NCBI GenBank assembly: GCA_020629995.1
Contig: JAHDCH010000024.1
Span: forward strand, 1 to 17,356
Direction: 5' to 3'
Source of the DNA: Pseudaestuariivita sp.
GTDB taxonomy: Bacteria; Pseudomonadota; Alphaproteobacteria; Rhodobacterales; Rhodobacteraceae
DNA length: 17,356 nucleotides
Shown in pieces: positions 1 through 16,676 of this stretch. The translations under genes and the position numbers were made by a program. The first letter of the stretch is position 1; the number at the start of each line of letters is the position of its first letter. The notes beneath the pieces were generated by a model. That model saw only the letters and a list, made by a program, of their open reading frames with translations, did not search any database and was not told the origin of the DNA.

Positions 1-194
1 TCGACCGGGCCCAGCTCTTCGTCCACCGCCGCGTCAGCGGCCTTGTCGATCACCGTGCTGCCCGTGCCAGCCTCATAGCGCGATCCATAGTCCAGCGTGT
101 GCACCGGCTGCGGCACCTCGCAGGCGGCGGCCACTGCCGGACCCGCGAGCGTAGCGAGCCCCCCCGCCAAAGCAAGCGCCAGCGCGCGGATCAT
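1..194 (-). CDS. algL: AlgL-like alginate lyase (PL5), N-terminal part, cut by window edge
   Basis: Only the first 64 codons lie in the window. They begin with a signal peptide (MIRALALALAGGLATLAGPAVA, cleavage near AxA). The mature start has a Cys followed by VPQP, a hydrophobic residue, then the segment LDYGSRYEAG and a later run around IDKAADAAVDEELGPV. This resembles the mature N-terminus of Pseudomonas AlgL (Cys, VPPP, a short gap, SKYEGS, then KAEKTF and a hydrophobic helix). AlgL is a periplasmic lyase that cleaves polymannuronate by beta-elimination and clears misdirected polymer. The ATG overlaps the stop of the preceding repeat-protein gene as ATGA, so it is the last visible member of the operon. 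The catalytic part lies outside the window, so activity cannot be judged. The identification leans on a short N-terminal resemblance plus context. Confidence 0.62.
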   Translation of the reverse strand, partial: MIRALALALAGGLATLAGPAVAAACEVPQPVHTLDYGSRYEAGTGSTVIDKAADAAVDEELGPV

Positions 195-2914
195 GTCCCG
201 CTCAGCCGCAACAGCCTTGCCAGACGTTCGGCCGGGCGGTCGCCCGCCGCCGCCGCCTGATCCAGCCAGACCAGCGCCCCCGGCACGTCGCGCACCACGC
301 CCAGACCATAGCCCAGCATCTCGCCATAGGCGCTCATGCCCTGCACGTGCCCGCCTTCGGCCGCCGACAGCAGCCAGCGTGCTGCCTCGGCCAGCTCGCC
401 CTTGGTGGTGGCCCGGTCGCGCAGCAACAGCCCGTATTCGGTGCGGGCGGCCACGTCTCCGCCCTGCCCCAGCTGGCGGTACAGGGTGCCCATGTCGAAC
501 CGCGACATCACGCTGTCCTGCACCGCGCGCTCGGCGCGGCGGAACTGGCCCAGCACCCAGGTCTGGTCCTGCGCCCCGCCCCGCGTCACCAGCGCCAGCA
601 GGTGATCTGCGGCAAGGCTGGGATCATAATCCTCCAGATCGGGGTTCGACGTCAGCTGATACAGCGTGCGCAGCGCGGTCAGGTCCCCGTCGGCCAGCGC
701 CCGGTCCTTGACGCCCTTGCGGTCGGGCGCCGCGCCCGTGTCATAGGCGGTCAGCTGGATGTCGCTCAGGCGCAGCTTCGACAGCACGTGCTTGCCGTGG
801 ATGGTCAGCCCGATCTGCTTCCAGCGGAACGCCTCCGCCGGATCACCCAGGATGGTGTGCGCGTCGGCCATCTCTTCGACATCCTTGGTCGAACAGTTCA
901 TCTGCTGCGCCGCGCGGTCAAAGTAATCGCCCCGCTTGTCGGGGCTGACATGCGGCAGCGCGAACATCATGGCCAGAAAGTCGCCCCGGTCCTCGATCTC
1001 CTGCTTGTATTCCTCGTAGACCGAGCGTTCGGACCTTTCTCGCGCCAGCAGGCGCGACATCAGCCGGATCGCCGCGCCCTCGCCCCGGTGCGCCGCCTGA
1101 TCCAGCAGGCGCAGGATCTCGTCGGCCACCTCGGGCACGCGGCTGTTGTCCTCGGTCAGCGCGATGGCAAGGTCCAGCGCCGTGGTCACCCCGTTGTTGA
1201 GGTAGACGCGGCGGAACAGCTCGATCGCGCGGGTCCGCTCGGCGGGGTTCGTGGCCAGCTCGAACTCCAGCTCGGCAAAGACCTCCAGCGCCTTGTCCGA
1301 CCGGTCAAGCCGTCGGGCCCAGATGCGCTGTGCCCGTTCGCTGGCGAAGGGGTCGATCTGCACCCGCTGCACGTGGCGCGCAAGGCTCTCGATCCGGCCA
1401 TCCAGCGCCTGAGACTGGATGCGCGCGATGGTCCACGGCTCCTTGTAGGGGTCCAGCGCGATCAGGTCGGTGGCCGAGATCGGCACCGTGCGGTGCTGGG
1501 TGGCCTTGTAGGCGCGCGCCCATGGGTCCGCTTCGGCCAGACGCGGCGCATTGGGCGCCTTGCAGCGATACAGGCCATCCAGCTGACCCAGCGACCCTTC
1601 CATGCCATAGCGGCTGACCGTGTCGGCCCACAGATCGGCGGCGCGGTTCAGCTGCACCGGATCGTCGCGATACCGCACCAGAATGCTGGCCAGCTCGTAC
1701 TGTCCCTCTCCATCGCCCCGGCGTGCGGCCTCCTCGAACTTTTCGCGCGCTTCGGCCTCGCCCTTCCAGCGGCCCGACTTGACCAGGATCTCCTTGCCCA
1801 GCTTGGTAAAGGCCCGGCCCGGCGCATTCGGCAGCTCGGTCACCTCTCGCAGATAGTCGAGGTACAGCCCGTCCTCGTCCGCCTCCTGCCCGTCGATGTT
1901 GACCGACAGGCGGAACAGGGGCGAGATCTGCGGCCGCTTGCTGCCCGCATCCTCTGAATGGTTGAACCCGAGGATCTCGCGCACCGCCTCGACGTCTGCG
2001 CCCGACATCTCGACCGCGGCAACCTGCCCTTCGTCCAGCGTGATGCCCCGCGCCACCGCCATCTCGAGATAGCGCAGCATCTCGGCATTGTCCTTTTCGG
2101 CGGCCGGGGCGCTCAGGTGCTGCTCCACCATGCGCCACGCCCCCCGGGCCGAGCCCATGTCGGCCGAAAAGCGCAGCCAGGCCCGCGCCACATCGCGGTT
2201 GATCGAGACGACCCCTCCGCTGAGGTATTCCTGCGCGATGCGTTCGGCCCTGCGGCACACGCCCCGGTCCATCTGGCCCAGCAGGCCGCCAAAGGCCATG
2301 GTCACGGTCAGGTCCAGCGGTGCGTCCCAGCCGGGCAGCGGCGTGCCCTGCACGTCCATCCGCACGATATCCAGCAGCGCGTTGGCATGGCCCGCAAAGG
2401 CCGCCTGACGGATCAGCTCCTGCGCGTAGGGCACATCAACCTCGACGCCTGTGCCTTCGAGGTACAGCTGCGCCAGCTGCATCTTCTGGTTGTTCAGCAG
2501 CCCCTCGGCCTGCGCGCGCAGCTGCGGCACCAGCCCCTCTGCCGTCAGCGCCTCCAGACGGCCCGCCGCGATATGCAGGTCAATCCGCGCCAGCGTCTCT
2601 TCCACGCCGGCAAACTCCGGATCGATCCGCGCCCGCCACGCGATCAGGTCACCGATAAAGGCGAACCACTGCTCGGGGCTTTCGCGGTAGAGGCGCTTGA
2701 TGTGCCGGTCGATGTACCGGATGCGCTGACGGTCGGTCAGCTCTTCGTCTCCGCCCTCGGTCTGCAGCTCATCGGGCTTGTCCTCGCCCGTGGGCGTGCA
2801 GACATTGCGCGGCTCCAGCGTGGGCGGCAAAAAGACGATGTCGATCGTCTTGGCCTGCGCCGTCAGGGGCAGCATCGCGGCCAGCGCCGCTGCGATGATA
2901 CGTTTCAGACCCAT
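191..2914 (-). CDS. Exported Sel1/TPR-repeat protein, 907 aa, AlgK-like by position
   Basis: The protein starts with a clear Sec signal (MGLKRIIAAALAAMLPLTAQA, cleavage before KTID). There is no lipobox Cys, unlike Pseudomonas AlgK, which is an outer-membrane lipoprotein of about 475 residues. Sel1-like repeats are visible at about residues 143-183 (QLAQLYLEGTGVEVD, then a helix rich in Ala), about 216-266, and most clearly in the last 88 residues (AARWLLSAAEGGHVQGM, GYGLGVVRDVPGALVWLDQA). The middle is helical and of degenerate repeat type. In alginate systems the repeat protein scaffolds the periplasmic machinery and the outer-membrane porin, so this is probably the AlgK counterpart, but orthology is not shown. 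Two in-frame ATGs lie side by side at the algX stop; I chose the second because the AGGAGG is then 7 bases away instead of 4. The 3' end overlaps algL by 4 bases. Confidence 0.85.
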   Translation of the reverse strand: MGLKRIIAAALAAMLPLTAQAKTIDIVFLPPTLEPRNVCTPTGEDKPDELQTEGGDEELTDRQRIRYIDRHIKRLYRESPEQWFAFIGDLIAWRARIDPEFAGVEETLARIDLHIAAGRLEALTAEGLVPQLRAQAEGLLNNQKMQLAQLYLEGTGVEVDVPYAQELIRQAAFAGHANALLDIVRMDVQGTPLPGWDAPLDLTVTMAFGGLLGQMDRGVCRRAERIAQEYLSGGVVSINRDVARAWLRFSADMGSARGAWRMVEQHLSAPAAEKDNAEMLRYLEMAVARGITLDEGQVAAVEMSGADVEAVREILGFNHSEDAGSKRPQISPLFRLSVNIDGQEADEDGLYLDYLREVTELPNAPGRAFTKLGKEILVKSGRWKGEAEAREKFEEAARRGDGEGQYELASILVRYRDDPVQLNRAADLWADTVSRYGMEGSLGQLDGLYRCKAPNAPRLAEADPWARAYKATQHRTVPISATDLIALDPYKEPWTIARIQSQALDGRIESLARHVQRVQIDPFASERAQRIWARRLDRSDKALEVFAELEFELATNPAERTRAIELFRRVYLNNGVTTALDLAIALTEDNSRVPEVADEILRLLDQAAHRGEGAAIRLMSRLLARERSERSVYEEYKQEIEDRGDFLAMMFALPHVSPDKRGDYFDRAAQQMNCSTKDVEEMADAHTILGDPAEAFRWKQIGLTIHGKHVLSKLRLSDIQLTAYDTGAAPDRKGVKDRALADGDLTALRTLYQLTSNPDLEDYDPSLAADHLLALVTRGGAQDQTWVLGQFRRAERAVQDSVMSRFDMGTLYRQLGQGGDVAARTEYGLLLRDRATTKGELAEAARWLLSAAEGGHVQGMSAYGEMLGYGLGVVRDVPGALVWLDQAAAAGDRPAERLARLLRLSGT

Positions 2915-4257
2915 CATGCGCCCTCCTGGCTGAGGCAGGCGATCACGCGGGGCGTGCCGCCGAACCCCTGATCGGTGCGGATGTCCACATGCGCCGCCCC
3001 TTCGCGCCACAGACCCGTCATGGGCAGATAGAACCGGCCCGTGGGCTGCTGGGCGTCGTGGCGGACCACCGTGCGTGTGCGGGTCAGCCCCGCGCGGCTG
3101 GTGAAGGTAAAGCGCGCCTCGGTCGCGGGCACCTCGCCCGCATCAAGGTACAGCGTATAGGTCTCGCCCGGGATCAGCGGGCCAAGGTCCACGCGGATGT
3201 CGCCATTGCCCGCCGTAAAGGCGGTCAGCGGTGTCCTGCACGCCGCCGGACCCTGCGCCGCCGCGACCAGCTCGGCCATGGGCTGATCTCCGAACTGCGC
3301 CAGGTTGGCCTCGATCGGCACCTCCCACACCAGAACGGCCGGACGTGCCGTCTGGAACGCGGTCGACGTCAGGTAAGACGAGATCGCCGCAAAGGCTCCG
3401 CCCCTCGGCACGGCGTAATGCTGAGTCTCGATGCCGGTGAATTCCGCCACGAACCCCGCGAAATTGGCCTCGGGGATCGAGGTCATGCTGCTGCCAACCG
3501 ATGCGATCCGGGCAAGCCGTACTCCGCCCGTGGTGGCACCTCCGAACAGCGATGTATCGGTGTTGCTGCTGCCCGCCGCGCGCTGGCTCAGGATGGTGTC
3601 CATCGCGATGACTTCGGGCCGGGGCAGATCGCTGAGGCAGGCGCGCTGGATGCGTGCGTGATCCGTGGACACGACCGGCACGGCCCCGCGCGGCGCCGAG
3701 GTGTAGACGTTGCGCGGCAGATCAGCCAGCTCGGGCACCTCCCTCAGCGCCATCGCCACGGCCTGCGCCACGCGCCGCGTGCCTTCCGTGGTCAGCCTGC
3801 GGTCGGTTGCCAGAAAGGTGGGCACCTGCGACTGGATCAGCTGTGCCCTCGCGTCTGCGGTGACCACGCCCGCTTCGCGCAGCCTGCGCACCGCATCGGT
3901 ATAGACGGTGGTGGCGATGTCGATGTCGAACCCGTAGTCCAGCGCCCCCGGCCCCAGGGCCCCCGGCATGCCCAGCGCCTTGGTCGGCACCGGCACAAAG
4001 ACCAGCGTTGTGCCCTGTGCGGCCAGTGCTTCGCTCAGCTCGGCCACATCCTCGACCGCCTGTTCGGAAATGTTGTGGAACGCGTCCAGATCGGGCTGAA
4101 TCCGGTAGAACACTCCGCCCGTGCCCTCGTGCGCGCTGGCAAAGCCTCCGTCGTCAAGATCGGTGCAGCCATAGGCCGATTGTGCCGCCGCCGGCCCCGC
4201 AACGCCAAACACCGCCCCAAAGGCGGCTGCTGCGATCCCTGCAAGATGTCGTCTCAT
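2914..4257 (-). CDS. algX: AlgX-like alginate acetylation/export protein (SGNH domain plus C-terminal CBM)
   Basis: At 447 aa with a signal peptide ending AAAQ, it is close to Pseudomonas AlgX (474 aa). The N-terminal SGNH-hydrolase-like domain shows the family pattern GVFYRIQPDLDAF, a helix, then TTLVFVPVPTKALG (about 48-96). The nucleophile motif is VGSSMTSIPEANFAGF (Ser257). The C-terminal part from about 335 resembles the AlgX carbohydrate-binding module (YTLYLDAG), and Cys pairs C31/C207 and C340/C441 are spaced like the two disulfides of AlgX. AlgX binds polymer in the periplasm and moves acetyl groups onto mannuronate. The usual Asp-x-His of the catalytic triad reads D152-R153-R154 here, so acetyl transfer may be lost. 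It follows the 256-residue exported protein by 18 bases and overlaps the next gene. AlgJ is a less likely name because of the C-terminal module. Confidence 0.85.
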   Translation of the reverse strand: MRRHLAGIAAAAFGAVFGVAGPAAAQSAYGCTDLDDGGFASAHEGTGGVFYRIQPDLDAFHNISEQAVEDVAELSEALAAQGTTLVFVPVPTKALGMPGALGPGALDYGFDIDIATTVYTDAVRRLREAGVVTADARAQLIQSQVPTFLATDRRLTTEGTRRVAQAVAMALREVPELADLPRNVYTSAPRGAVPVVSTDHARIQRACLSDLPRPEVIAMDTILSQRAAGSSNTDTSLFGGATTGGVRLARIASVGSSMTSIPEANFAGFVAEFTGIETQHYAVPRGGAFAAISSYLTSTAFQTARPAVLVWEVPIEANLAQFGDQPMAELVAAAQGPAACRTPLTAFTAGNGDIRVDLGPLIPGETYTLYLDAGEVPATEARFTFTSRAGLTRTRTVVRHDAQQPTGRFYLPMTGLWREGAAHVDIRTDQGFGGTPRVIACLSQEGA

Positions 4258-4275
4258 CGAGATGTGCCCTCACCT

Positions 4276-5046
4276 CTAGTTCGTGACCGCTCCTTCCCCG
4301 GCCTGCCAGGACCCGACCAATGCGATCAGGTTCAGCGCCGTGGTCTGAACGGACAATCTGCTCGAATTTTGCGCCCGCTCCAGAAGCCGAAGTGCCTCGG
4401 CCTCGTCGTCGCGCGTTCTTGTATCGTTTTTCAAAAGGTTGACCGCGAGGCGCAGTTCCGTGCGCCCGTCGCCCCCTTCGGCCTGCGCCAGGATGCGCGA
4501 CCTTGTCTTTTGCGACAGCGCGCCAAACAGGCGGCCTTCGCCGTTAAAGTCCACCAGCGCGTCCAGCGCCACCGCGTTGCCGCCCCATGCATAGGGGTAC
4601 AGCACGCGCATCAGCTGCCTCTTGCGCCCCGCCGGTTCGGTCTTGGGGTCCAGGTGGTGCATCGCGCGCACCATCTTGTGAAACGCCGACACGCGCCCCG
4701 CCGCGGCCGCGATCGACCCGTAATAGGCGATGTCCGAGGCGTTTTCTTTGACGCCGCGCTGCCACAGGATCTGCTGGTATTTCAGCGCGGCAAGGCTGTC
4801 CTTTCGGTCGGCCAGCGCGCGCAGGTCTTCTTCGCTGACCGGTTCCTTGGCCAGCATGGCGCGGCGTGCGTTGCGCAGGGCGCGGCTGCGCAGGTATTTC
4901 GTCTTGGTCAGGCCCCGGTCCACGACCACGGCGACATCGCGAGCCTCTTCAGCCGCGGGAATGGGGATGTTGAGGCCCTGTGCCTCGGCCCATGCGGCCA
5001 CCGGCGCGCCCATAAGGGCCGCGATCAGGATCAGGCGGCGGATCAT
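4276..5046 (-). CDS. Small exported helical-repeat (Sel1-like) protein of unknown role
   Basis: This is a 256-residue protein with an N-terminal signal (MIRRLILIAALMGAPVAAWA). No standard alginate protein matches it. The body is almost wholly helical, with short segments of degenerate Sel1/TPR character (SLAALKYQQILWQRG, DIAYYGSIAAAAGRVSAF, AWGGNAVALDALVDFNGEG). It has basic patches and no Cys, so a soluble periplasmic protein is likely. Its ATG overlaps the algG stop as ATGA and algX follows after 18 bases, which places it inside the coupled periplasmic part of the operon. By position it could be a second scaffold protein, a partner of AlgX or AlgG, or a spin-off of the larger repeat protein. 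No function is assigned. Confidence 0.85.
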   Translation of the reverse strand: MIRRLILIAALMGAPVAAWAEAQGLNIPIPAAEEARDVAVVVDRGLTKTKYLRSRALRNARRAMLAKEPVSEEDLRALADRKDSLAALKYQQILWQRGVKENASDIAYYGSIAAAAGRVSAFHKMVRAMHHLDPKTEPAGRKRQLMRVLYPYAWGGNAVALDALVDFNGEGRLFGALSQKTRSRILAQAEGGDGRTELRLAVNLLKNDTRTRDDEAEALRLLERAQNSSRLSVQTTALNLIALVGSWQAGEGAVTN

Positions 5047-6545
5047 CGGCTTGCCCCTTCGGCACAGCCCGCCTCGGGCACTGCGTCCCGTGCCACTCCG
5101 GCCGCCGTCAGAACCAGCGCATCCGCGCCCGCCGATTGCGCGAAGGCTGCGTTCTGCGGTGCCACATCGCCCGACAGGAACCGCGGCACCTGCCCGGAAA
5201 AGTCATTGCCCGCCAGCACCAGCTGCGCCGCCGTTGCGGTGGTCAGGCCTGCGCGGTTCTGGCTCAGCACGTTTCCGGCCAGCCGTGTAACCACGTCAGA
5301 TCTCTGGGCGCTGACCCAGATGCCGGTGTTGCGGTTCAGCGCGACGCGGTTGCCCTCGACGATGGCACCGCGTGCTGTGCGCACCTCGATGCCCTTCTGC
5401 CGGTTCTGGATCACCCAATTGTCCGCGATCACGCCGCAGTTGGACTTGGCAAAGATGATGCCGGTGCCGTCACGCTTCCACACCACGTTGCTCCGGATCT
5501 GCGCGCGGTGGCTGTCGAACTTGACGACAATGCCCGCACGGGTGCCGCCGAGGATCACGTTGTCCTCGATCCGCGCCCCAAAGGACCCGCGCAGCACCTG
5601 CACCGCGTTGAACTCTCCGCCCCCGAAAAACAGGTTGCCCGCGATGACGGGGCGGCCCGCGTTGGTGACGACCAGCGCCGCCTTGCGTGCGCTCCGGAAC
5701 CGGTTGTCGCGGATCTGCACATCCTGCGCCGTGTCGATCCAGACCGACCCGATCCCGTCAAACAGGTTGCCGATCAGATGCGACGTCCCGCGCCCCAGCA
5801 TCAGCCCGTTCCGGGCAATGGCGACGCCGGCGAATTTCTCGGTATGGCCAAAGCCGAGCCCGGCAAAGGTGCTCGTCTCCAGCTTGAGCTGCCCGCCGCT
5901 GCCCGCCACCACGAAGGGGCGAAAGTTGGCGTCATGCGCGTTTTCTTCTTCGGTGCCCTCGATCCGCGCGCCGGTTGTGCGCAGCGCGCCCAGCACCAGC
6001 ACAAAGGCGCCCTCGGACCGGTCCAGCCGCACGGTCTCTCCGGGCATCAGCGTCAGCTCTGCGGTATCCCAGACCACCAGCGGGCGGCTAAGCACCAGCG
6101 CGCCATCCTCGCCGATCCGCCCCGCGCCCGCCTCGAGCGCGGCGCGCGTCAGATCGGGCGCATTTGCGTGGCCCTCGCGCAGCACCAGCGCCTGCGGCAC
6201 GCCCTCGCCCTGCGCGCGCAGCACCGCCTGGTTGTCGCCCTGCCCGTGACTTTGCGAGATCATCGCCAGCGGCAACCGCATGTCCAGCATCTGGAACCTC
6301 GGCGTGCCGGTCACCGGCGCTACGGGCGCGGCGGCCGCCGTTTGCTCCTCGGGCGCTTCGGGACGCGCCAGCTGCGGCAGGTCAACCTTGGCCCATGGAT
6401 CGGTTTGCAGCTGTTTCACCAGGGCGTCCAGCGACCGTGCGAGGGCAAATGCCTCGCGGTCGGGCGCCGACAGCGCGGCCCCCGCCAACCCGGCAAACAG
6501 CGCCAGGGACGTCACGAAACACAAGGTGGACAGCGCCTTACGCAT
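5043..6545 (-). CDS. algG: AlgG-like right-handed beta-helix protein (mannuronan C5-epimerase family)
   Basis: From the ATG overlapping the algA stop by 8 bases the protein has 500 residues (Pseudomonas AlgG about 543). It starts with a signal peptide (LCFVTSLALFAGLAGAALSA). After an Ala/Pro-rich stretch (about 60-80), residues about 150-450 form a parallel beta-helix with repeated turns such as HLIGNLFDG, VQIRDNRF, PVIAGNLFFGG, ARIEDNVILGG, AQIRSNVVW, GVIADNWVIQN and AIVEGNRVALN. AlgG converts mannuronate to guluronate in the periplasm and also shields polymer from AlgL. The DPHD catalytic motif of AlgG is not present: the equivalent coil reads LVVTNAGRPVIAGN, and the nearest similar string is FDSHR at 343-347. 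Family and location are secure, while epimerase activity is doubtful. An upstream in-frame ATG at 6596 would bury the signal peptide. Confidence 0.82.
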   Translation of the reverse strand: MRKALSTLCFVTSLALFAGLAGAALSAPDREAFALARSLDALVKQLQTDPWAKVDLPQLARPEAPEEQTAAAAPVAPVTGTPRFQMLDMRLPLAMISQSHGQGDNQAVLRAQGEGVPQALVLREGHANAPDLTRAALEAGAGRIGEDGALVLSRPLVVWDTAELTLMPGETVRLDRSEGAFVLVLGALRTTGARIEGTEEENAHDANFRPFVVAGSGGQLKLETSTFAGLGFGHTEKFAGVAIARNGLMLGRGTSHLIGNLFDGIGSVWIDTAQDVQIRDNRFRSARKAALVVTNAGRPVIAGNLFFGGGEFNAVQVLRGSFGARIEDNVILGGTRAGIVVKFDSHRAQIRSNVVWKRDGTGIIFAKSNCGVIADNWVIQNRQKGIEVRTARGAIVEGNRVALNRNTGIWVSAQRSDVVTRLAGNVLSQNRAGLTTATAAQLVLAGNDFSGQVPRFLSGDVAPQNAAFAQSAGADALVLTAAGVARDAVPEAGCAEGASR

Positions 6546-7938
6546 ACTTGCTGAGATCCTCCAGCGCCGCTTCGCCCGTGACGGGCAGCGTGACAAAGAT
6601 CAGCTCGGCGTGGCCGGTGCCGCGGTTGGCGATGCGCACGTCGCGTGCTGGCGGCAGCAGATGCCTCGCGCCCGCCTCCAGCGCGGTTGTCGCGCTGCCG
6701 TCGTCCACCACCACATCGCCCGAGGCGACGATCACCTCGCGGCCCGGCTTGGCCTCGACCTTGACGATCGCGCCCGGCTTGATGTTCAGCGCCGACAGGT
6801 CCAGCCCGTCGCTTTTGACGATCTTGCGCAGGTGGCCCCACTCGTGCTCGGTGCCGGCGTGCTTTTCAGCCTCGACGCGTTCGGTCTTTTTCAGGTGCTC
6901 CGCGACCTTCTTGACCGATTGGCAATGGCCCACCTTGGTGACCAGCAGCGCGTCGTCAGTGTCGACGATGATCACGTCCGTCAGGCCCACGACCGTCACC
7001 AGCCGGTTGTCGGACCGCACCATGGTGTTCTGTGTCTCGACCGCGATCACGTCGCCCTGCAACACGTTGCCCTGCGGATCGCTCTCGCTGATGCCGTACA
7101 TCGCCGTCCACGACCCCACGTCCGACCAATCCACGTCCAGCGGTGCCAGCGCGATCTTGTCGGTTTTTTCGAACACAAGGCTCTCGGTCGGGTGGTTGTT
7201 GCACTCGGCAAAGCTGTCACCATCCAGGAACAGGCCCTCTTCGGTCTGCTCTCCTCGCTCGATCGCCTTGCGCACGTGGCCCACCGTGTCGGGGTCGACC
7301 TTGCGGTATTCCTCGATGATCGTGTCGGCTCGGAACATCGAAATGCCCGACGCCCAGTAGGCGATGTCGCTTTCCACCAGCAGGCGTGCCTTGCGGGTGG
7401 GCGGCTTTTCGACAAAACGCTCGACCGCGTGCAGCCCGTTCATCCCCACGATGGGGCCCGCGTCGGTGATGTAGCCAAAGCCCGTTTCGGCATAGCGCGG
7501 CTTGATCCCGAAGGTGATGATATAGCCCGCGTCGGCGGCCTGTTTCATCGCGCGGATCGTGGCGTTGATGTCTCCGTCGATCACGTGGTCGGACGGGACC
7601 ACCAGCATGACCGCTCCGGGGTCTTCCTCGGCCAGTACCAGCGCTGCGGCCAGCACTGCGGGACCCGTGTTGCGCCCCATGGGTTCGAGGATGATGCGCG
7701 CATCCGTGTCGATGTCGTCCAGCTGGCCCTGCAGCGTCCGGCGATGCCGGGCCGAAGACACGACGACGGGCTGGGCAAAGCCGTGCCCGGTGTGCCGCCC
7801 GATGGCCGACTGGAAAAAGCTGGGCGTGCCCGCTCCGCCAACCCGCTGGAACTGCTTGGGGCTTTGCGTGCGCGACACGGGCCACAGGCGCGTGCCGTTG
7901 CCGCCACAGATGACAAGCGGATGGATCAAAGCGCTCAT
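6538..7938 (-). CDS. algA: Mannose-1-phosphate guanylyltransferase (AlgA-type) with degenerate isomerase domain
   Basis: The 466-residue length matches AlgA/XanB-type bifunctional enzymes. The nucleotidyltransferase domain has the signature GGNGTRLWPVSR (12-23) followed by SPKQF, ILEPMGRNTGPA (83-94) and FVEKP (175-179). It makes GDP-mannose from mannose-1-phosphate and GTP in the cytoplasm, the substrate of AlgD. The C-terminal cupin (about 365-455) begins like the isomerase half (EWGHLRKI, then IKPGA) but lacks the QxHxxRxEHW ligand motif; the run after PGA is IVKVEAKPGREVIVASGDV, and the second His position is Val. Fructose-6-phosphate isomerisation must therefore come from another enzyme. 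The ATG overlaps the alg44 stop as ATGA. The gene sits mid-operon, unlike the terminal algA of Pseudomonas. Confidence 0.93.
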   Translation of the reverse strand: MSALIHPLVICGGNGTRLWPVSRTQSPKQFQRVGGAGTPSFFQSAIGRHTGHGFAQPVVVSSARHRRTLQGQLDDIDTDARIILEPMGRNTGPAVLAAALVLAEEDPGAVMLVVPSDHVIDGDINATIRAMKQAADAGYIITFGIKPRYAETGFGYITDAGPIVGMNGLHAVERFVEKPPTRKARLLVESDIAYWASGISMFRADTIIEEYRKVDPDTVGHVRKAIERGEQTEEGLFLDGDSFAECNNHPTESLVFEKTDKIALAPLDVDWSDVGSWTAMYGISESDPQGNVLQGDVIAVETQNTMVRSDNRLVTVVGLTDVIIVDTDDALLVTKVGHCQSVKKVAEHLKKTERVEAEKHAGTEHEWGHLRKIVKSDGLDLSALNIKPGAIVKVEAKPGREVIVASGDVVVDDGSATTALEAGARHLLPPARDVRIANRGTGHAELIFVTLPVTGEAALEDLSKYA

Positions 7939-9296
7939 GACCGAGCCCCCTCTTTAAAGAACTTCAGGAATGGCAGCGTGCGCGTCAGACGCACGCGGGC
8001 CGGTTTGCCAATGTCAGCCGCCGTCAGCACGCCTTGGGGCGCTTCCAGCGAAACCGGCAGATATATGTCACCCTTCTGGGCCGCGGCATTGGTGGCCGAG
8101 GATTGCACCACCGTCACCGGCACCACGCGCCCGTCCGACAGGACGATGGCGACGTTCTCGCCATTCACCGCGCGGCTCAGGCCTTCGACCGACAGCATTG
8201 CCTCGACCTGCACGCGCGTCTCGCCCTTCTGGTGGAAGGTCAGCACCGGGTCCGACGGCAACACCGTCGCGCCCTCGTAGACGCCAGCGGCCAGCGTGAC
8301 CGAGCAATCGCACGGCAGTGAAAAGTTCAGGATGTCGCCCGAATTGGCGCTGATCGAATAGATCACCTCGCCCATCCCCGCTTCGGTGTTCAGATAGGTG
8401 ATCTGCCCCGGCGAGGTCGACCGCATCTCTTGCCCCGCCTGTGCGATGAACACCGGGCGCGGCTCGTAGGCGTGGATATAGCGCTGGGTCACGATGTTCA
8501 GCGCCACCGCGATCAGCAGCAGCGACACGGCAATGACGCCCGCGCTCTTGAGATAGCTGCGCTTGGCCTCGCCCGCCTTGGCCTTGGGGCTTTTGGGCGT
8601 CACCGGGCCGGTATAGCTGAGGAACGAGCCCAGCGTGACAAAATCCCCGGCGATAAAGCTGTTGATGACATAGCGCAGCTGCGGCAGGTGCGGACCGGTC
8701 GGGTCGGCAAATTCCAGCGCCACCTCGGTGTGGTCGCGACCTCGGGCGATCAGCACCTCGGGGGTCAGGTCGATCTGGAACCCGTCAAAGACAAACTGGA
8801 TATGCGCCAGATGCTTGGTGCCCAGCATGCTGTCGTCGGGCGTGACCGGCACGCGCACATAGGCGTGGGTCAGCGACAGGCCCGCGCCTTCCAGCGTGTC
8901 CTCACCGATCTTGACGGTGAAGGGCATCGGGCAGACGGGATGTTCCTTCTCGGTCACAAAATCCGTCGCGATAGACGGCTTGGGCTGCGGCTCGGCGGGC
9001 TGTTGCGGCGCGGCAAAGGCAGGCGTGGGTTGGGCCTGCGGCTGCGGCTGTGCCGGCTGAGGCTGCGCTTGCGCTTGCACGGGTTGTGGTTGGGCCTGCG
9101 GTTGGGCCTGCGGTTGCGTGTAGCTCTGCGGTTGCGGCTGCGCGGGCGGTTGCGCTTGCGGTTGCTGCGCCGCGCCTCCGAACTGCGCGCCATAGTGGCG
9201 CACGGCCGGTGCCGCGCCTTGCCCAGGCTCGGGATCCGTCCGCGTCGCGGCAAGCGCGCGCTTCATGTCATCGGTCAGTTTCAGCTCGCCAGGCAT
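7935..9296 (-). CDS. alg44: Alg44-like alginate copolymerase, degenerate PilZ domain
   Basis: The 453-residue protein has a Pro/Gln-rich cytoplasmic N-terminus (about 44-106), a PilZ-like beta domain (about 118-230), a single membrane helix (SAGVIAVSLLLIAVALNIV, about 251-269) and a periplasmic membrane-fusion-like part to the C-terminus. This is the Alg44 layout, and the gene follows alg8 by 14 bases, as it does in known alginate operons. Alg44 activates Alg8 on binding c-di-GMP through RxxxR and D/NxSxxG. Here the RxxxR site reads around TEKEHPVCPMPF without any Arg, and the second motif reads GAGLSLTHAYV. Direct c-di-GMP control is thus doubtful. AAAGGG lies 6 bases upstream of the ATG. 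The family call rests on order, topology and fold pattern, because sequence identity looks low. Confidence 0.82.
   Translation of the reverse strand: MPGELKLTDDMKRALAATRTDPEPGQGAAPAVRHYGAQFGGAAQQPQAQPPAQPQPQSYTQPQAQPQAQPQPVQAQAQPQPAQPQPQAQPTPAFAAPQQPAEPQPKPSIATDFVTEKEHPVCPMPFTVKIGEDTLEGAGLSLTHAYVRVPVTPDDSMLGTKHLAHIQFVFDGFQIDLTPEVLIARGRDHTEVALEFADPTGPHLPQLRYVINSFIAGDFVTLGSFLSYTGPVTPKSPKAKAGEAKRSYLKSAGVIAVSLLLIAVALNIVTQRYIHAYEPRPVFIAQAGQEMRSTSPGQITYLNTEAGMGEVIYSISANSGDILNFSLPCDCSVTLAAGVYEGATVLPSDPVLTFHQKGETRVQVEAMLSVEGLSRAVNGENVAIVLSDGRVVPVTVVQSSATNAAAQKGDIYLPVSLEAPQGVLTAADIGKPARVRLTRTLPFLKFFKEGARS
8619..8945 (-). other. Degenerate PilZ-like domain of Alg44
   Basis: Residues 118-226 of the Alg44 protein align in pattern with PilZ (PFTVKIG strand, then GLSLTHAYVRV, then a hydrophobic strand AHIQFVFDGFQIDL, then TEVALEFADP). 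The Arg pair and the Asp/Asn of the c-di-GMP site are missing. The match is by eye. Confidence 0.55.
8976..9167 (-). repeat. Pro/Gln low-complexity tract in Alg44 N-terminus
   Basis: The DNA is a degenerate array of 6-base units coding QP and QA pairs, giving about 63 residues made almost only of Gln, Pro and Ala (residues 44-106, for example QPQAQPQAQPQP). It sits between a short N-terminal acidic/basic segment and the PilZ-like domain. It is probably a disordered linker, and its length probably varies between strains through slippage. Confidence 0.85.
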
Positions 9297-9310
9297 GGCA
9301 AACCCTTTCC

Positions 9311-10789
9311 CTAAAAGTTACCCACTAACGCGACCGCGATGGTCAGGAACACAAGTGCAATGATGTGGTGCGCGGTGTTATCCAGCGCCTTGATACGATC
9401 CGACATGGCCACTGCCGCGGCACCGCCGCCGCTGCCCTGCCGGGTCCATTTCTGCTTGTCCAAACGGAACAGGACGAAGGTCTTGACCATGGCTCCGGCG
9501 ATCTGCCCAAAGTACAGCAGGAACGGATAGGTCACCTTGAACCATTCGTCGTTGAACAGGCTGATGATCACGCAGAACATGTACCGGGTGGCCATGACCC
9601 AGGCGATGTACAGCGGGATGATCTCCCACGTGCCGCCCAGCGCCGTCAGCGTCACCGTGATCGGCCCCACCAGCGTGGTCCAGGCCGACACGCGCTGATC
9701 CAGGATCGACCACCAGGTGAACTTGCCGATCAGCCGTGTCTCCAGCCCCAGCGCGCGCCCGTTGGTGCGCATCATGTTGCCAAACCAGCGCACCATCAGC
9801 GTCTTGGCTGAATCAAAGAACGTCGGGCGCGGCTGGTCCTCGTAGGACCGGCTCTGCACGTCGGGCAGATAGCGCATCTCGTAGCCGTTCTTCAGCAGCC
9901 AGAACCACGTGCTCTTGTCGTCCCCGGTCAGGAAATTGACCCGGCCCAGACGCCAGTGATCCAGAAAATCGCTGCCCACCTGTTCGATGAACGTCGGGTC
10001 GGTCGCCAGCGTTGCTCGGAACACGCTCATCCGGCCCGTCAGCGTCAGCACCCGGTTGCCCAGCCCCATCGAGCACATCATCACCTGCCGCTGGTTAAAG
10101 CGCATGATGAACCAGTCCCGGAACAGGCTGTCTTCGGGGATCACCACCGCTTCGTCCGTGGTCAGCGCGCCGACCTTGGAATTGGTGAACACGGGCGCCG
10201 AGGCCTCCCAGATGTTGGCGGGCACTTCTGTGTCGCCATCCACAAAGACCAGAATATCCCGATCGGTCGGGCAAAATCCTCTCAGGATGTTCAGCGTCTT
10301 GCGCAGCGCGTCTCGCTTGCCGTTCGCCTTGATCCGGTCGATCACCAGCTTCACGGTGCTCATGTCGCGCGGCATGGTGTCGTAGATCTGCTGGATCAGC
10401 CGCTCGTCGGCTCCGTCCACGACCGAGGCCACGATGGTCGCCCCGTCTCGCGCATTGGCCGCTGCGTCAAACACCGTGCGGTAGACCGGCAGCGTCACTT
10501 CGGGCGGCACCATGTAGCTGGTCACCAGCATGTAGCAATGCGACCCGCCAGCCTGTTTGGCAAACCTGCGCTGCCCCCTCCGTTTGCGCCGCGGGTAGCT
10601 GACGCGCCGGAAATAGATCGCGCGGGTAAAGTTGATGGCCGCCCAGCTGTAGCGCCAGGTCCCCAGCACGCCCAGAATAAAGATCGACGTCTCCGCACCA
10701 TCGAGGTCCCCAAGGAAGCCCTTGGGAACCACCGACGCCAAAATCACGATCACCGCGAAATAGGCCATATGGGTGAGGAACATCGTCAT
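9311..10789 (-). CDS. alg8: Alg8-type mannuronan synthase glycosyltransferase (GT2)
   Basis: At 492 residues the protein is almost the length of Pseudomonas Alg8 (494). It has membrane segments near 8-24 and 33-52, then a cytosolic GT2 domain with the metal-binding DGDT (184-187), the acceptor-site segment LTLTGRMSVFRA (248-259), the catalytic-base motif LTGDDKSTWF (287-296) and MVRWFGNMMRTNGRA (332-346, matching the RW-type motif). Several more membrane helices follow (WWSILDQ to the C-terminus). It polymerises mannuronate from GDP-mannuronate across the inner membrane together with Alg44. It lies 57 bases after algD and 14 before alg44. No good Shine-Dalgarno is seen near its ATG (AAAAGG is 14 bases away), so translation may depend on algD or on the hairpin between the genes. 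Confidence 0.95.
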   Translation of the reverse strand: MTMFLTHMAYFAVIVILASVVPKGFLGDLDGAETSIFILGVLGTWRYSWAAINFTRAIYFRRVSYPRRKRRGQRRFAKQAGGSHCYMLVTSYMVPPEVTLPVYRTVFDAAANARDGATIVASVVDGADERLIQQIYDTMPRDMSTVKLVIDRIKANGKRDALRKTLNILRGFCPTDRDILVFVDGDTEVPANIWEASAPVFTNSKVGALTTDEAVVIPEDSLFRDWFIMRFNQRQVMMCSMGLGNRVLTLTGRMSVFRATLATDPTFIEQVGSDFLDHWRLGRVNFLTGDDKSTWFWLLKNGYEMRYLPDVQSRSYEDQPRPTFFDSAKTLMVRWFGNMMRTNGRALGLETRLIGKFTWWSILDQRVSAWTTLVGPITVTLTALGGTWEIIPLYIAWVMATRYMFCVIISLFNDEWFKVTYPFLLYFGQIAGAMVKTFVLFRLDKQKWTRQGSGGGAAAVAMSDRIKALDNTAHHIIALVFLTIAVALVGNF

Positions 10790-10838
10790 TGCGACTAAGC
10801 GTACCTTTTCAATGGGTTGCCTGGTGTGTTGCCCGAGG

Positions 10839-10860
10839 GCACCTGCTTACCAGCAGATGC
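10839..10860 (-). other. Hairpin spanning the algD stop codon
   Basis: On the minus strand GCATCTGCT pairs with AGCAGGTGC around a GGTA loop: 9 base pairs with one G-U. The stop TAA begins inside the loop. A second short palindrome, TGCCCTCGGGCA (10830-10841), follows directly. No T-run follows, so it is not a standard intrinsic terminator; it may be an attenuating, processing or mRNA-stabilising element between algD and alg8. Confidence 0.5.
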
Positions 10861-12160
10861 CTTCGTACGTGCCGTTCGACACCTTCTTGCGGTTCATCCG
10901 CGTCAGGTCGATCATCGGCTTCTTGACCGCTTCCAGGCGCTCGACCGTGTCGCGGTAGAAATTGCCCACCAGCACCGTGTCACTGCCTTCGATCACTGCG
11001 CTCAGGTCGTCGTTCAGACGCCCGGCCAGATCCGGCACCACATCGTTGCCCCGGCCCGCGGTCGAGTTTTCGTTGGCAAAGGCTTCGTGGACGTAGGGGT
11101 CAAAGATCTCGACCTCCACGCCGCTGCGGATCAGCCGCCCGGCCAGCTCGGCCAGCGGGCTTTCGCGCAGATCATCTGTGCCCGGCTTGAACGAGATGCC
11201 GACAAAGCCAACCTTCTTGGCGCCCGACTTCTCGACCATCTCTTCGGCGCGTGCGATCTGGGCCTCGTTGGCCTCCATCACGGCCTCGAGCATATGCGCG
11301 GTCACGTCCTTTTCGCGCGCCAGATGGCGCAGGGCGCGGACGTCCTTGGGCAGGCACGATCCGCCAAAGGCAAAGCCGGGCCGCATGAAATAGGACGAGA
11401 TGTTCACCTTGTCGTCCGAACACAGGATCTCCATGACCGTCTGACCATCGAGGCCGCAGGCCTTGGCGATGTTGCCGATCTCGTTGGCAAAGGTCACTTT
11501 GACCGCGCGCCATGTGTTCGAGGTGTACTTGACCATCTCCGCCGTGCGCAGGTCCACCACGTGGATCTTGCAGGGCAGCTTTTCGTTGATCTCGGTCAGG
11601 ATGCTGGCGGTGCCGTTGTCCATCGCGCCAAACACGATCAGGCCGGGATCATAGTAATCCTCGATCGCCGTGCTCTCGCGCAGGAACTCGGGGTAGTAGC
11701 CGACGCCAAATTCCTTGCCCGCCGTCTTGCCGCTCGCCTTTTCCAGCACCGGGATGCAGGTGCCTTCGCACGAACCCGGCACGATTGTGCTGCGGATCAC
11801 GACGCTGTGGAACGCGTCCTTGTTCTTCAGCGCCTTGCCGATGTTCTCGCAGACGATCTCGACATATTTCAGCCCGACCGACCCGTCCGGGGCCGAGGGC
11901 GTGCCCACGGCGATGAACGACACGTCCGAATTGTCGATGGCGTATTGCACGTCATCCGTTGCCAGGATGCGGCCCGCTGCGTGCTGCTCTGCAATCAGCT
12001 CGTCCAGACCGTTTTCCACGATCGGCGACAGGCCGTTGTTGATTGCTTCGATTTTGCCGGGGTCGACATCGACCGCGATCACGTCGTGTCCGTCCTTGGC
12101 GAGACACGCCGCCGACACAACACCCACATACCCAATGCCGAAGACACTGATTCTTGCCAT
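10847..12160 (-). CDS. algD: GDP-mannose 6-dehydrogenase
   Basis: The 437-residue length fits AlgD (436 in Pseudomonas). The N-terminal NAD-binding Rossmann domain starts MARISVFGIGYVGVVSAACL. The catalytic region carries YYPEFLRESTA (155-165), EMVKYTSNTWRAVKVTFANE (a substrate-side Lys and Asn, 208-227) and the nucleophile motif FGGSCLPKD with Cys269. The C-terminal domain has GISFKPGTDDLRESP (321-335), and the protein ends GICW like other AlgDs. It oxidises GDP-mannose to GDP-mannuronate in the cytoplasm, the committed step. Frames extend upstream to 12295, but the start at 12160 is the one with GAGG 6 bases before it and with the Rossmann strand at the N-terminus. It is the first gene of the operon and faces the 348-bp control region. 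Confidence 0.96.
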   Translation of the reverse strand: MARISVFGIGYVGVVSAACLAKDGHDVIAVDVDPGKIEAINNGLSPIVENGLDELIAEQHAAGRILATDDVQYAIDNSDVSFIAVGTPSAPDGSVGLKYVEIVCENIGKALKNKDAFHSVVIRSTIVPGSCEGTCIPVLEKASGKTAGKEFGVGYYPEFLRESTAIEDYYDPGLIVFGAMDNGTASILTEINEKLPCKIHVVDLRTAEMVKYTSNTWRAVKVTFANEIGNIAKACGLDGQTVMEILCSDDKVNISSYFMRPGFAFGGSCLPKDVRALRHLAREKDVTAHMLEAVMEANEAQIARAEEMVEKSGAKKVGFVGISFKPGTDDLRESPLAELAGRLIRSGVEVEIFDPYVHEAFANENSTAGRGNDVVPDLAGRLNDDLSAVIEGSDTVLVGNFYRDTVERLEAVKKPMIDLTRMNRKKVSNGTYEGICW

Positions 12161-12508: not shown

Positions 12509-13402
12509 ATGAAACAGGTTCTGACGTCCCTCGCGCTTGCGGCCTTTCTGGCCGTGCCCGCCGCCCATGCAACCGATGCGCCGCGTGGCTATGACGCGCC
12601 GCTCAGCCCCATGGCGCATAACTTCCGCGCCACCAGGTTCCCCGAACCCACGCGCTGGGGCGCGCGCGCCGAACGGTTCGAACTGCGCAGCGGCGATTGC
12701 GGTGGATCAGACTGCGGCAACCCCCGCTACCGGGCCGAAATTCAGGAACGCAAGCGCCGTTATACCGCGCGGATCAACAAGGACATCTGGATCGGCTATT
12801 CCTATCTGGCCCCCGGCATTGCGCCGACCCGCCGCGCCGATGCTTTGCGGCTGGTGCTGGGCCAGTGGCGGCTCAATCCCGACACGCCTCCCGCCATGCG
12901 CCTGATTCAGCTGGGCCGGGACGAAGGCAATTTCAAATCCTGCCCCGCCTCGCTCTGCACGCCCTCGCCCGATGCCTCGCGCGATGTCGTGCTGCACCTT
13001 GACGACATGGCCTCGACCTTCAAATGGGGCAAGGACCGCAACAACGGCTACATCTGCCGGCTGTTTTCCTCCCGGGCCGCGCAGACCCAGTGGCAGGACA
13101 TTGTGATCAACACCAACTTTGCCAGCGACGCCAGCGGCTATCTGCGGATCTGGGTGAACGAAGAGCTGGTCTGCGATTATCGCGGGCGCATCGCCGCCCA
13201 TGCCAGCACCAACACCCGCCGCAACTGGCTGCAGCACCGGCGTGGCATCTTTTCCAGCTTTACCAAGCGCTGGGAAAAGGTGCACGGGCTGAAGCCCAAG
13301 CCCACCCTGGTGGCCTATTACGATGAATTCCTGACCGGCAGCAGCCGCTCTGCGGTCGACACCCGCCTGCGCGAACAATCCGGCGCCCGCCCCAAGGACT
13401 GA
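12509..13402 (+). CDS. Exported polysaccharide lyase, heparin-lyase-I-like fold (PF14099 type)
   Basis: The 297-residue protein has a signal peptide (MKQVLTSLALAAFLAVPAAHA). Its body shows the concanavalin-like jelly-roll pattern of the PF14099 lyases: ERFELRSGDCG (55-65), RYRAEI (73-78), IWIGYSYLAP (93-102), LGQW (117-120), then WQDIVINTNFASDASGYLR and IWVNEELVCDYRG (195-226). A conserved-looking VAYYDEF (268-274) is near the C-terminus. Such enzymes cut uronate-containing polysaccharides by beta-elimination outside the cytoplasm. An upstream frame from 12422 exists, but GGAG sits 5 bases before the chosen ATG and the signal peptide starts there. It is divergent from algD, so it may trim or recycle the polymer made next door. 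The true substrate is unknown. Confidence 0.78.
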   Translation: MKQVLTSLALAAFLAVPAAHATDAPRGYDAPLSPMAHNFRATRFPEPTRWGARAERFELRSGDCGGSDCGNPRYRAEIQERKRRYTARINKDIWIGYSYLAPGIAPTRRADALRLVLGQWRLNPDTPPAMRLIQLGRDEGNFKSCPASLCTPSPDASRDVVLHLDDMASTFKWGKDRNNGYICRLFSSRAAQTQWQDIVINTNFASDASGYLRIWVNEELVCDYRGRIAAHASTNTRRNWLQHRRGIFSSFTKRWEKVHGLKPKPTLVAYYDEFLTGSSRSAVDTRLREQSGARPKD

Positions 13403-13410
13403 CGCGTCAG
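13399..13410. other. Palindrome holding both convergent stop codons
   Basis: CTGACGCGTCAG is a perfect 12-bp palindrome in which TGA of the plus-strand lyase and TGA of the minus-strand ABM gene are mirror images, with 4 bases between the stops. No T-rich terminator is seen on either side, so transcripts may read into each other. Confidence 0.7.
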
Positions 13411-13709
13411 GCCGCGTCCTGCTGCGACGGCGCCCAGTGGGTCGTGTAGGTGCTCACATCCTTGCGGTCGATCATGCCTTGCACTGCACTGTCAAAGCTG
13501 CGGAAATGCGCCTCTTGCAGATGCCGGTCAAAGGCCGCCCTGTCGGTGTACAGCTCGTACAGGAACACCACGTCCCCCTCCCGGCACACGTCAAACTGGT
13601 GACAATCGTCCTCCAGCCTCAGCGACGCCGCCGCGTTTGCCTTCATCAGCGGCCAGAACCTGTCCATCTGGCCCTCGGCCAGTTCAAACGTCACGCAAAC
13701 TGCAAACAT
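13407..13709 (-). CDS. Antibiotic biosynthesis monooxygenase (ABM) domain protein
   Basis: This is a complete 100-residue protein of the dimeric alpha/beta-barrel ABM family: it opens MFAVCVTFEL, then has a helix and LEDDCHQFDVCREGDVVFLYELYTDRAAFDRHLQEAHF, the typical ABM core (EGC-like turn, strand, ...Y...AF..H....HF). Members include quinol monooxygenases and LsrG-type isomerases; in sugar clusters such small barrels may act as accessory isomerases. The start shares one base with the stop of the oxidoreductase gene (TGATG) and has GGGAGG 7 bases upstream. The same frame stays open to 14477, but that extension lies antisense within the oxidoreductase and is not real. The substrate is unknown. 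Confidence 0.85.
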   Translation of the reverse strand: MFAVCVTFELAEGQMDRFWPLMKANAAASLRLEDDCHQFDVCREGDVVFLYELYTDRAAFDRHLQEAHFRSFDSAVQGMIDRKDVSTYTTHWAPSQQDAA

Positions 13710-14752
13710 CAGCTGTCCTCCCTTGCTAAGGAAATATTCCGCCCCTCGGCGGCCGAGCGATAGGCGGCCTCGGTCACCTGCATCACGTGCAGATACGCCT
13801 CGGCCTCGTTTTCCAGTGGGGTGCCTTCGGCCAGATGGTCGATGACATGTCCGATCAAAAAGGCCACGCAGCCCCCACCAAAAGTCGCGGCAAAGGCGTG
13901 GCTCTGCTCTGGCAGCGGCCCGGGCTCCAGCTCTCCGGGGCGGCGCAGGCTCCACTGGCCCCGCCCGTCCAGGCGCAGCACGCCGCCTTCCGCTTCGATC
14001 TCCATCTCGCCCATGGTCAGGCGGGTGTTTTCGGCTGCGTGATCCACCAGGCGGTTGCCGTCGAAAACACTGCGCACCCCACCTTCGTGGATCATGGTCA
14101 GCACGCCCGCATCCTCGCCACGGATCGCCGGGTTCAACTGGCGCAGATCGGCATAAACCTCTGTGATATCGCCAAAAAGCCATCGGAACGTGTCGATGAA
14201 ATGCACGCCGGTTTCGTGGATCAGAAACCGCTGCATCTGCTGGAACGCGGGCTGGCGATCCAGATAGGCCCGGGGGCCCCGCCCGTCGCCGGGCCGCAGC
14301 GCGAACCGCGCCTGCCAGACCTGCCCCAGCTCGCCCCCATCCAGCAGCGCCTTCAGATCGCGATACCAGGGCTGAAAGCGAAAGTTCTCGTGGATGGCGA
14401 TGCGTGTTCCGGCCTGTCTGGCCTCTCGCATGATGGTTTCGGCCTCGGGAATGCCCGTGCAGAACGGCTTTTGACACACGATCAGCGGCACCCGGCCCAG
14501 CGCCTGCCGGATCAGCCCTGCGTGGGCCGGCGGCGGTGCTATGATGTCCAGCACGTCGGGCCTCGTCTCTTCGATCATGCGCCCTGCGTCGTCAAAGGCC
14601 TGTGCTCCGGTTTCGGCTCCGGCCTGTGCCCTGCGCTCTGCGTCCGGGTCGCACAGCCCCACGATGCGGGTCCTCGGGTCTCCGGCCCAGGCAGACAGGT
14701 GGAACTGGCTGAAATAGCCAAGCCCCGCCACCGCGACCCGCAGATCCGTCAT
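13709..14752 (-). CDS. Gfo/Idh/MocA family oxidoreductase
   Basis: The 347-residue protein has the family layout. An N-terminal dinucleotide-binding fold carries VAVAGLGYFSQFHL (6-19) and CDPDAERRAQA. The catalytic Lys sits in CQKPF (93-97, the EKP motif). The C-terminal substrate domain has HETGVHFIDTFRWLFGD (179-195), where His and Asp act in family members. These enzymes oxidise or reduce sugars, inositols or uronates with NAD(P). The start overlaps the dehydrogenase stop as ATGA, and the 3' end shares a base with the ABM gene, so the three are translationally coupled. The neighbours suggest a catabolic oxidation step. The substrate cannot be named. Confidence 0.92.
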   Translation of the reverse strand: MTDLRVAVAGLGYFSQFHLSAWAGDPRTRIVGLCDPDAERRAQAGAETGAQAFDDAGRMIEETRPDVLDIIAPPPAHAGLIRQALGRVPLIVCQKPFCTGIPEAETIMREARQAGTRIAIHENFRFQPWYRDLKALLDGGELGQVWQARFALRPGDGRGPRAYLDRQPAFQQMQRFLIHETGVHFIDTFRWLFGDITEVYADLRQLNPAIRGEDAGVLTMIHEGGVRSVFDGNRLVDHAAENTRLTMGEMEIEAEGGVLRLDGRGQWSLRRPGELEPGPLPEQSHAFAATFGGGCVAFLIGHVIDHLAEGTPLENEAEAYLHVMQVTEAAYRSAAEGRNISLAREDS

Positions 14753-15852: not shown

Positions 15853-15875
15853 GTCGGCTCCTTTGGTCGGCGTCT

Positions 15876-16583: not shown

Positions 16584-16623
16584 GGCAGCTCCACACCGGA
16601 CTTGCCGGATGACGAATCTATGG

Positions 16624-16637
16624 ATACATTAATGTAT
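16624..16637. promoter_or_regulatory. Palindromic operator candidate for the GntR regulator
   Basis: ATACATTAATGTAT is a perfect 14-bp palindrome in the 93-bp gap between the regulator and the divergent lactonase-like gene. It lies 41 bases before the regulator start, a natural place for an FCD-type GntR operator. Confidence 0.6.
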
Positions 16638-16652
16638 GCGTTAATGTATGCA
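16629..16652. repeat. Tandem 12-bp direct repeat, second operator half
   Basis: TTAATGTATGC occurs twice with a 12-base period (16629-16639 and 16641-16651). The first copy shares its left part with the palindrome, so bound dimers would lie about one helical turn apart and could bind cooperatively. Confidence 0.6.
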
Positions 16653-16676
16653 CTAAAGCAAGGGCGGATTTCCTCT

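Follow-up and report, generated by a model that had tools for sequence, protein, structure and literature searches.

A conserved alginate-type operon of Alphaproteobacteria that lacks known epimerase and c-di-GMP motifs may encode a polymannuronate export machine

The window considered here, a 17,356-nucleotide stretch of Pseudaestuariivita sp. DNA, is the entire contig C364 in a genome that is 70% complete (G000), and its sequence ends at base 1, inside the last gene of an alginate-type operon (Table 1). The genes run algD-alg8-alg44-algA-algG-kS-algX-kL-algL, all on the minus strand, with overlaps or gaps of at most 57 bp between them, and none of the eight complete genes contains an internal stop. 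This is the gene order of the original prediction, whose assignment of the DNA to the Rhodobacterales also holds. In Pseudaestuariivita atlantica 22II-S11-z3 (G001, same genus, 99% complete) the operon has the same order, with a complete algL last, and the genes that follow it look unrelated by sequence. As proposed, no open reading frame of the window, up to the contig end, was recognised as algE, algI, algJ or algF; for the genus, the proposal fails for algI, algJ and algF, which occur there unlinked to the operon.

Table 1. Features of the window, with the evidence for each assignment.
Feature	Coordinates	Strand	Evidence
algD, GDP-mannose 6-dehydrogenase	10847..12160	-	PDB 1mfz
alg8, GT2 mannuronan synthase	9311..10789	-	PF13641; DGD and TGDDK present
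alg44: Q/P-rich linker, PilZ-fold domain without RxxxR, TM helix, periplasmic membrane-fusion domain	7935..9296	-	
algA, mannose-1-phosphate guanylyltransferase, C-terminal isomerase motif gone	6538..7938	-	TIGR01479, PF00483
algG-like right-handed beta-helix without DPHD epimerase motif	5043..6545	-	NF038177, AlgG structures
kS, 256 aa, small Sel1-like helical-repeat periplasmic protein, distant AlgK relative	4276..5046	-	
algX, SGNH domain, Arg in place of the catalytic His, Asp and Ser present	2914..4257	-	PF16822, 4knc
kL, 908-aa Sel1-repeat periplasmic solenoid, long AlgK-like scaffold	191..2917	-	PF08238, AlphaFold
algL, first 64 codons, truncated by contig end	1..194	-	ATG overlaps kL stop
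divergent PF14099 polysaccharide lyase, next to algD	12509..13402	+	PF14099 E 3e-15

An Alg8-alignment scan of the GTDB species genomes returned 167 relatives, and the best 80 of these were taken; the window, L017 and L133 were added, L063 (the same as L062) and L133 (the same as L046) were removed as duplicates, and the set then held 81 distinct loci with an Alg8 of at least 300 aa. Their carriers are Rhodobacterales, Rhizobiaceae/Rhizobiales and Roseibium. The order algD-8-44-A-G is found in 72 of these 81 loci; six of the other nine end before algG, and three (L064, L065 and L072) lack algD and algA. To describe the locus as rearranged, as had been done, is thus misleading, since this order is the usual one. 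Two forms can be told apart, for which we have coined the names type A and type B: the window's own, type A, runs D-8-44-A-G-kS-X-kL-L with no algI, algJ or algF in the operon, and type B runs D-8-44-A-G-I-J-kS-X-F-kL-L. Among the 81 loci, the type A label covers 24, 23 of which have algX with no preceding algI, the remaining one, L038, ending after algA and being assigned from its position in the tree; type B is the default label for the other 57, and AlgI was found in 51 of them. Where a type A locus has algX, the kS profile finds a match as well in 20 cases of 23, the exceptions being L050, L051 and L052.

In the Alg8 tree, type A forms one clade with a support of 100/100, recovered in 100% of 200 bootstrap trees; the final tree was built without the GT2 proteins of the window's own genome, whose branches are very long, and without L131, L106, L086 and the duplicates L063 and L133. 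Because type A is a single clade, its losses belong to one shared history and do not count as independent events. The alginate-type system is also patchy in the window's family, since an Alg44 profile matches only 31 of 394 genomes. The locus is no one-off rearrangement, and the alginate-type system to which it belongs is widespread in the alphaproteobacteria. Judged from annotation and gene lengths, complete operons also lie on plasmids, one of type A in Jannaschia sp. M317 and one of type B in Loktanella salsilacus; on both, Alg44, kS, AlgX and kL are annotated as 'hypothetical'. The three loci without algD and algA are type B operons, and each of their genomes has a type A operon too; it looks as though one supply of GDP-mannuronate served two polymers. 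For comparison we used five reference operons of the Pseudomonas type (L127-L130 and L135, from another class and, we infer, gammaproteobacterial; in L135 algL sits behind algF), two loci with another gene order (L132 and L134), and L131 of G166, an alphaproteobacterium of another family.

The first genes of the operon would supply GDP-mannuronate and polymerise it. The best PDB match of AlgD is the GDP-mannose dehydrogenase 1mfz, at full length and E 1e-126, against E 1e-74 or weaker for UDP-glucose dehydrogenases. Alg8 carries the active-site motifs TGDDK and DGD in 81 of 81 distinct loci. The window's Alg8 is 38-42% identical to Alg8 of the five Pseudomonas-type operons, in keeping with the alginate-type assignment, and 42.5% identical to that of G166. 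It does not group with unrelated GT2 proteins, in a comparison that covered the GT2s of the window's genome and a tree without named cellulose or hyaluronan synthases: of five other GT2 proteins of that genome, three give no match, one matches at 23% over 198 aa and one, on C34, at 34% over 425 aa. The last is an Alg8-like paralogue that adjoins an HlyD-domain protein (L160, G000:C34, 108-3162, minus strand), and the pair is possibly another synthase/co-polymerase system, for which a mixed-linkage glucan system is, we presume, one candidate kind. AlgA scores 365 bits against TIGR01479, just below the cut-off of 373, and matches PF00483 at E 8e-42. The sequence QxHxHRxEHW, which we take to be its isomerase motif, is absent from AlgA in 72 of 72 distinct loci (best 80 of 167), and no type I phosphomannose isomerase (PF20511) was found in the three genomes G000, G001 and G007, which would leave mannose-6-phosphate without an evident source and counts against the reading favored below.

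The window's Alg44 has no Pfam match, and its assignment comes from structure: its model aligns with the Alg44 PilZ structures 4rt0, 4rt1 and 4xrn at a TM of 0.73-0.80 by target length, and also matches membrane-fusion structures. The arginine pair R17/R21 of the RxxxR c-di-GMP motif is absent in 77 of 77 alphaproteobacterial loci from the best 80 of 167, and present in all five Pseudomonas-type operons and in G166. A match to the pattern RxxxR...DxSxxG in Alg44 of L044 was set aside; it starts near residue 297, outside the PilZ domain. From these sequences, direct c-di-GMP control of Alg44 would seem to have been lost. Alg44 of the window and of P. atlantica share a Q/P-rich, low-complexity N-terminal linker at residues about 20-115; the three more distant relatives in the first alignment lack it. 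A weak match to Alg44 on C47 of the window's own genome covers query residues 44-146, including the Q/P-rich linker, and is taken as low-complexity; inspection of the surrounding ORFs of C47 by eye showed no alg gene.

AlgG of the window scores 59 bits (E 3e-16) against NF038177, whose cut-off is 700, and matches AlgG structures at E 4e-13 to 9e-13. In AlgG, the histidine of the DPHD motif probably takes the proton (PMC4444821). The motif is absent from all 74 distinct loci examined among the best 80 of 167, and from all 31 listed AlgG homologues, the proteins of the window and of P. atlantica included; it is present in the five Pseudomonas-type operons and in G166. Indeed, DPHD, DxHD, DPH and PHD occur nowhere in the 76 alphaproteobacterial AlgG rows (duplicates included). 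At such divergence the register of the beta-helix is uncertain, and in these rows no His, Tyr, Arg, Lys or Glu is conserved at 85% or more; an aspartate, D465 in the numbering of the window's ORF, is conserved in 70 of the 76. The protein could hold an active site of an unrecognised kind. A DNA pattern for DPHD was found in four of four positive genomes and in one of 23 type A/B genomes, that of Rhizobium tibeticum, at a different locus. That locus, L154 (G494:C76), encodes a second AlgG-like protein with DPHD intact, and both protein and locus are like those of G166; some rhizobia may carry DPHD-bearing and DPHD-less systems together. AlgG of L132 and L134 also lacks DPHD, and since these come from another class, the loss is not peculiar to alphaproteobacteria.

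AlgX of the window matches PF16822 at E 9e-33 and the AlgX structure 4knc at E 1.5e-24, and it has DRRL and GSS, that is Asp, Arg and Ser, at the triad positions. In P. aeruginosa AlgX, D174, H176 and S269 are needed for acetylation (PMC4148444). Among the loci from the best 80 of 167, type A AlgX has lost the histidine in 23 of 23 cases and the serine in 21; the window and one other locus retain the serine. Type B has the whole triad in 48 of 48. A list of 77 AlgX homologues, scored from the best 8000 candidates and including the window and some proteins already surveyed, has 76 without the histidine and 75 without the serine.

An AlgI alignment search of 23 type A genomes (that of L038 excluded) gave no match at E 1e-20 or better in 17, Marinovum algicola FF3 (G462) among them; some of the 17 are metagenome-assembled and perhaps incomplete. 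In three others AlgI belongs to a type B operon that the genome carries besides its type A one. The last three are P. atlantica, the window's genome and a Marinovum MAG, where algI stands in a separate module with algF, algJ and an AlgX-like gene (algX2). In P. atlantica the module (L027, 6473-12126, on G001:C53) encodes an AlgX-like protein that keeps DTHW, an AlgJ-like protein, AlgI, an AlgF-like protein (34.1 bits against a Pfam cut-off of 34.4) and a 358-aa protein without Pfam match; in the window's genome it is a fragment on C232, in which algI, algJ and the AlgX-like gene are seen and algF is not. Because the AlgX-like protein of the module keeps DTHW in P. atlantica, the window's genus may acetylate its polymer.

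The remaining periplasmic genes point to a helical-repeat scaffold. The window's kS has no Pfam match, and its family profile finds Sel1 structures at E 2e-9 and, at E 3e-6, the L135 protein that occupies the place of AlgK. The AlphaFold model of kL is an all-helical solenoid with a mean pLDDT of 85 and no beta-barrel, and the idea of a pore inside it was rejected on that ground; the kL family profile matches AlgK (7ula_B) at E 8e-4. Both proteins look like distant relatives of AlgK, and an AlgK-like helical-repeat scaffold is present in the operon. A distinctive AlgK fold for kL was considered and dropped, the searches giving generic Sel1/TPR matches with AlgK at rank 24 of the second.

Over 58 aa, the algL fragment of the window shares 55% identity with the P. 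atlantica AlgL, itself a match to PF05426 at E 3e-18. AlgL was read in 24 distinct loci, 22 of type A and two of type B (L019 and L030), one being unreadable at Y259: H202 is replaced by Leu and K66 by Arg throughout; wherever the positions can be read, Y259 is replaced by His, and R249 and Y256 are kept. These changes could mean another substrate. In P. aeruginosa, the H202A variant is inactive in vitro and its strain shows wild-type growth, and Y256 has been proposed as the acid/base (PMC8829089); since H202A grows normally and Y256 is kept, AlgL of types A and B may still cleave mannuronate.

The route through the outer membrane is a separate matter. The AlgE-family porin PF13372 was found in five of five genomes of the other class with alginate loci and was not found in 31 of the 32 alphaproteobacterial genomes with a locus; G000, G022 and G023 have none. 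A match in G495 is partial, with no alg gene by profile in the surrounding 3.5 kb, and was not retained. The polymer may leave through an outer-membrane barrel other than those of the AlgE family.

Set beside the alginate operons of Pseudomonas and Azotobacter, whose order algD-8-44-K-E-G-X-L-I-J-F-A is seen in L127, the window's operon shares AlgD, Alg8, Alg44, AlgA, the AlgG and AlgX folds, AlgL and AlgK-like repeats. It differs in having algA beside alg44, two AlgK-like proteins and no AlgE-family protein, in lacking the AlgG DPHD, the Alg44 RxxxR and the AlgA isomerase motif, and, as a type A operon, in the absence of algI, algJ and algF and in its incomplete AlgX triad. It had been called a full locus, and in this the original prediction was wrong: algI, algJ and algF are missing from the operon, no AlgE-family porin was found, and the modifying and regulatory motifs are gone. 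Type B operons, as in Loktanella salsilacus and Rhizobium, are like type A in order, families and the AlgG, Alg44 and AlgA motif losses, but unlike it they retain algI, algJ and algF, and their AlgX triad is intact. L131 of G166 likewise starts algD-8-44-algG, has AlgL-like and long repeat proteins and no AlgE-family match; unlike the window, it keeps the PilZ RxxxR and the AlgG DPHD, in an AlgG ORF of 1256 aa.

In the literature, atypical alginate operons from the deep sea have been described, with no mention of catalytic-site loss or of 'alphaproteobacter' in the available text (PMC7112194). A kelp-associated Micavibrionaceae MAG shows that alginate biosynthesis genes occur in an alphaproteobacterium; that case concerns five genes, algE included, in another family, and the available text has no gene-order or active-site analysis (PMC9238374). 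A Yangia 'exo-polysaccharide biosynthesis protein' is tabulated with the note 'alginate biosynthesis' (PMC7892980). In the portions of the open-access literature that were covered, we found nothing that joins alg44, alg8 and Rhodobacterales, and no description of this locus.

From gene content, motif losses and the single type A clade, all read directly from the DNA, we infer the chemistry of the polymer, the architecture of the complex and the loss of c-di-GMP control. On balance we favor, as the probable reading, a mannuronan machine that uses AlgG and AlgX as scaffold and exports a non-epimerised polymannuronate without direct c-di-GMP control. AlgA and AlgD would make GDP-mannuronate, Alg8 would polymerise it, and Alg44 would bridge the inner membrane; AlgG, AlgX, kS and kL would form a periplasmic conduit that leaves the chain unmodified, with AlgL removing stray polymer. 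Published models, as far as their accessible text goes, place AlgG and AlgX in the secretion complex. The predicted product is a secreted beta-1,4-polymannuronate with little or no guluronate, presumably unacetylated in type A genomes without AlgI and, in the window's genus, open to acetylation by the separate algF-algI-algJ-algX2 module. We hold more tentatively to a broader proposal, whose odds we put at a little under even: that the clade naturally secretes pure polymannuronate, that its epimerase, acetylase and c-di-GMP receptor are only structural, and that exit is not through AlgE.

The product might instead be an ordinary alginate of mannuronate and guluronate, with AlgG epimerising through a different active site and acetylation supplied in trans. 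The AlgG fold, its position and the segment surrounding FRPFV are kept, the window's genus has its unlinked acetylation module, some of these AlgG proteins are labelled mannuronan 5-epimerase in one source, and every alginate-producing bacterium is reported to encode AlgG and to secrete alginate with some guluronate (PMC4444821). We consider this reading unlikely, however, with DPHD gone from 74 of 74 loci and 31 of 31 listed homologues and with His, Tyr, Arg, Lys and Glu all below 85% conservation at every position in the family. A polymer that is not mannuronan at all, made by an Alg8 that uses another nucleotide sugar or alternates residues, with AlgL, AlgG and AlgX adapted to it, is less probable again. 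Three AlgL residues that contact substrate or intermediate have changed together, and the window's Alg8 is only 38-42% identical to the Pseudomonas type; but GDP-mannose dehydrogenase is a far better match for AlgD than UDP-glucose dehydrogenases are, algA and algD lie inside the operon, and R249 and Y256 of AlgL are kept in all readable rows.

One might also suppose that the operon is decaying and non-functional, given that several active-site motifs are gone and no AlgE-family porin was found. We regard this as very improbable: the eight complete genes are open and free of stops, the Alg8 motifs are intact in 81 of 81 loci, the gene order is conserved across Rhodobacterales and Rhizobiaceae, and a well-supported clade of 24 type A loci retains these genes.

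No natural producer of polymannuronate was known according to a 2015 review, and these loci supply many candidates, among them Pseudaestuariivita atlantica, Marinovum algicola, Oceaniglobus ichthyenteri and Jannaschia pagri. They also offer a natural experiment in which the structural and the catalytic roles of AlgG and AlgX are told apart, and they raise the question of how the polymer exits without AlgE. For annotation, the analysis suggests that, taken as claims about activity, the public labels 'alginate O-acetyltransferase AlgX-related protein' and 'mannuronan 5-epimerase' on these proteins are wrong.

On the other side of algD, the PF14099 lyase often stands in type A loci: it adjoins algD in 14 of the 24 distinct type A loci, the window included, and in not one of the 51 type B rows that leave 1.5 kb or more of space there, a few duplicate fetches among them (L015 duplicates the lyase-bearing type A locus L031 and is not type B). 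Past the lyase, and with no evident tie to the alginate operon, the window holds a catabolic-looking cluster (13407-17354) of an ABM-domain protein, a Gfo/Idh oxidoreductase, an Iso_dh-family dehydrogenase, a GntR/FCD regulator and a metallo-beta-lactamase-fold protein.
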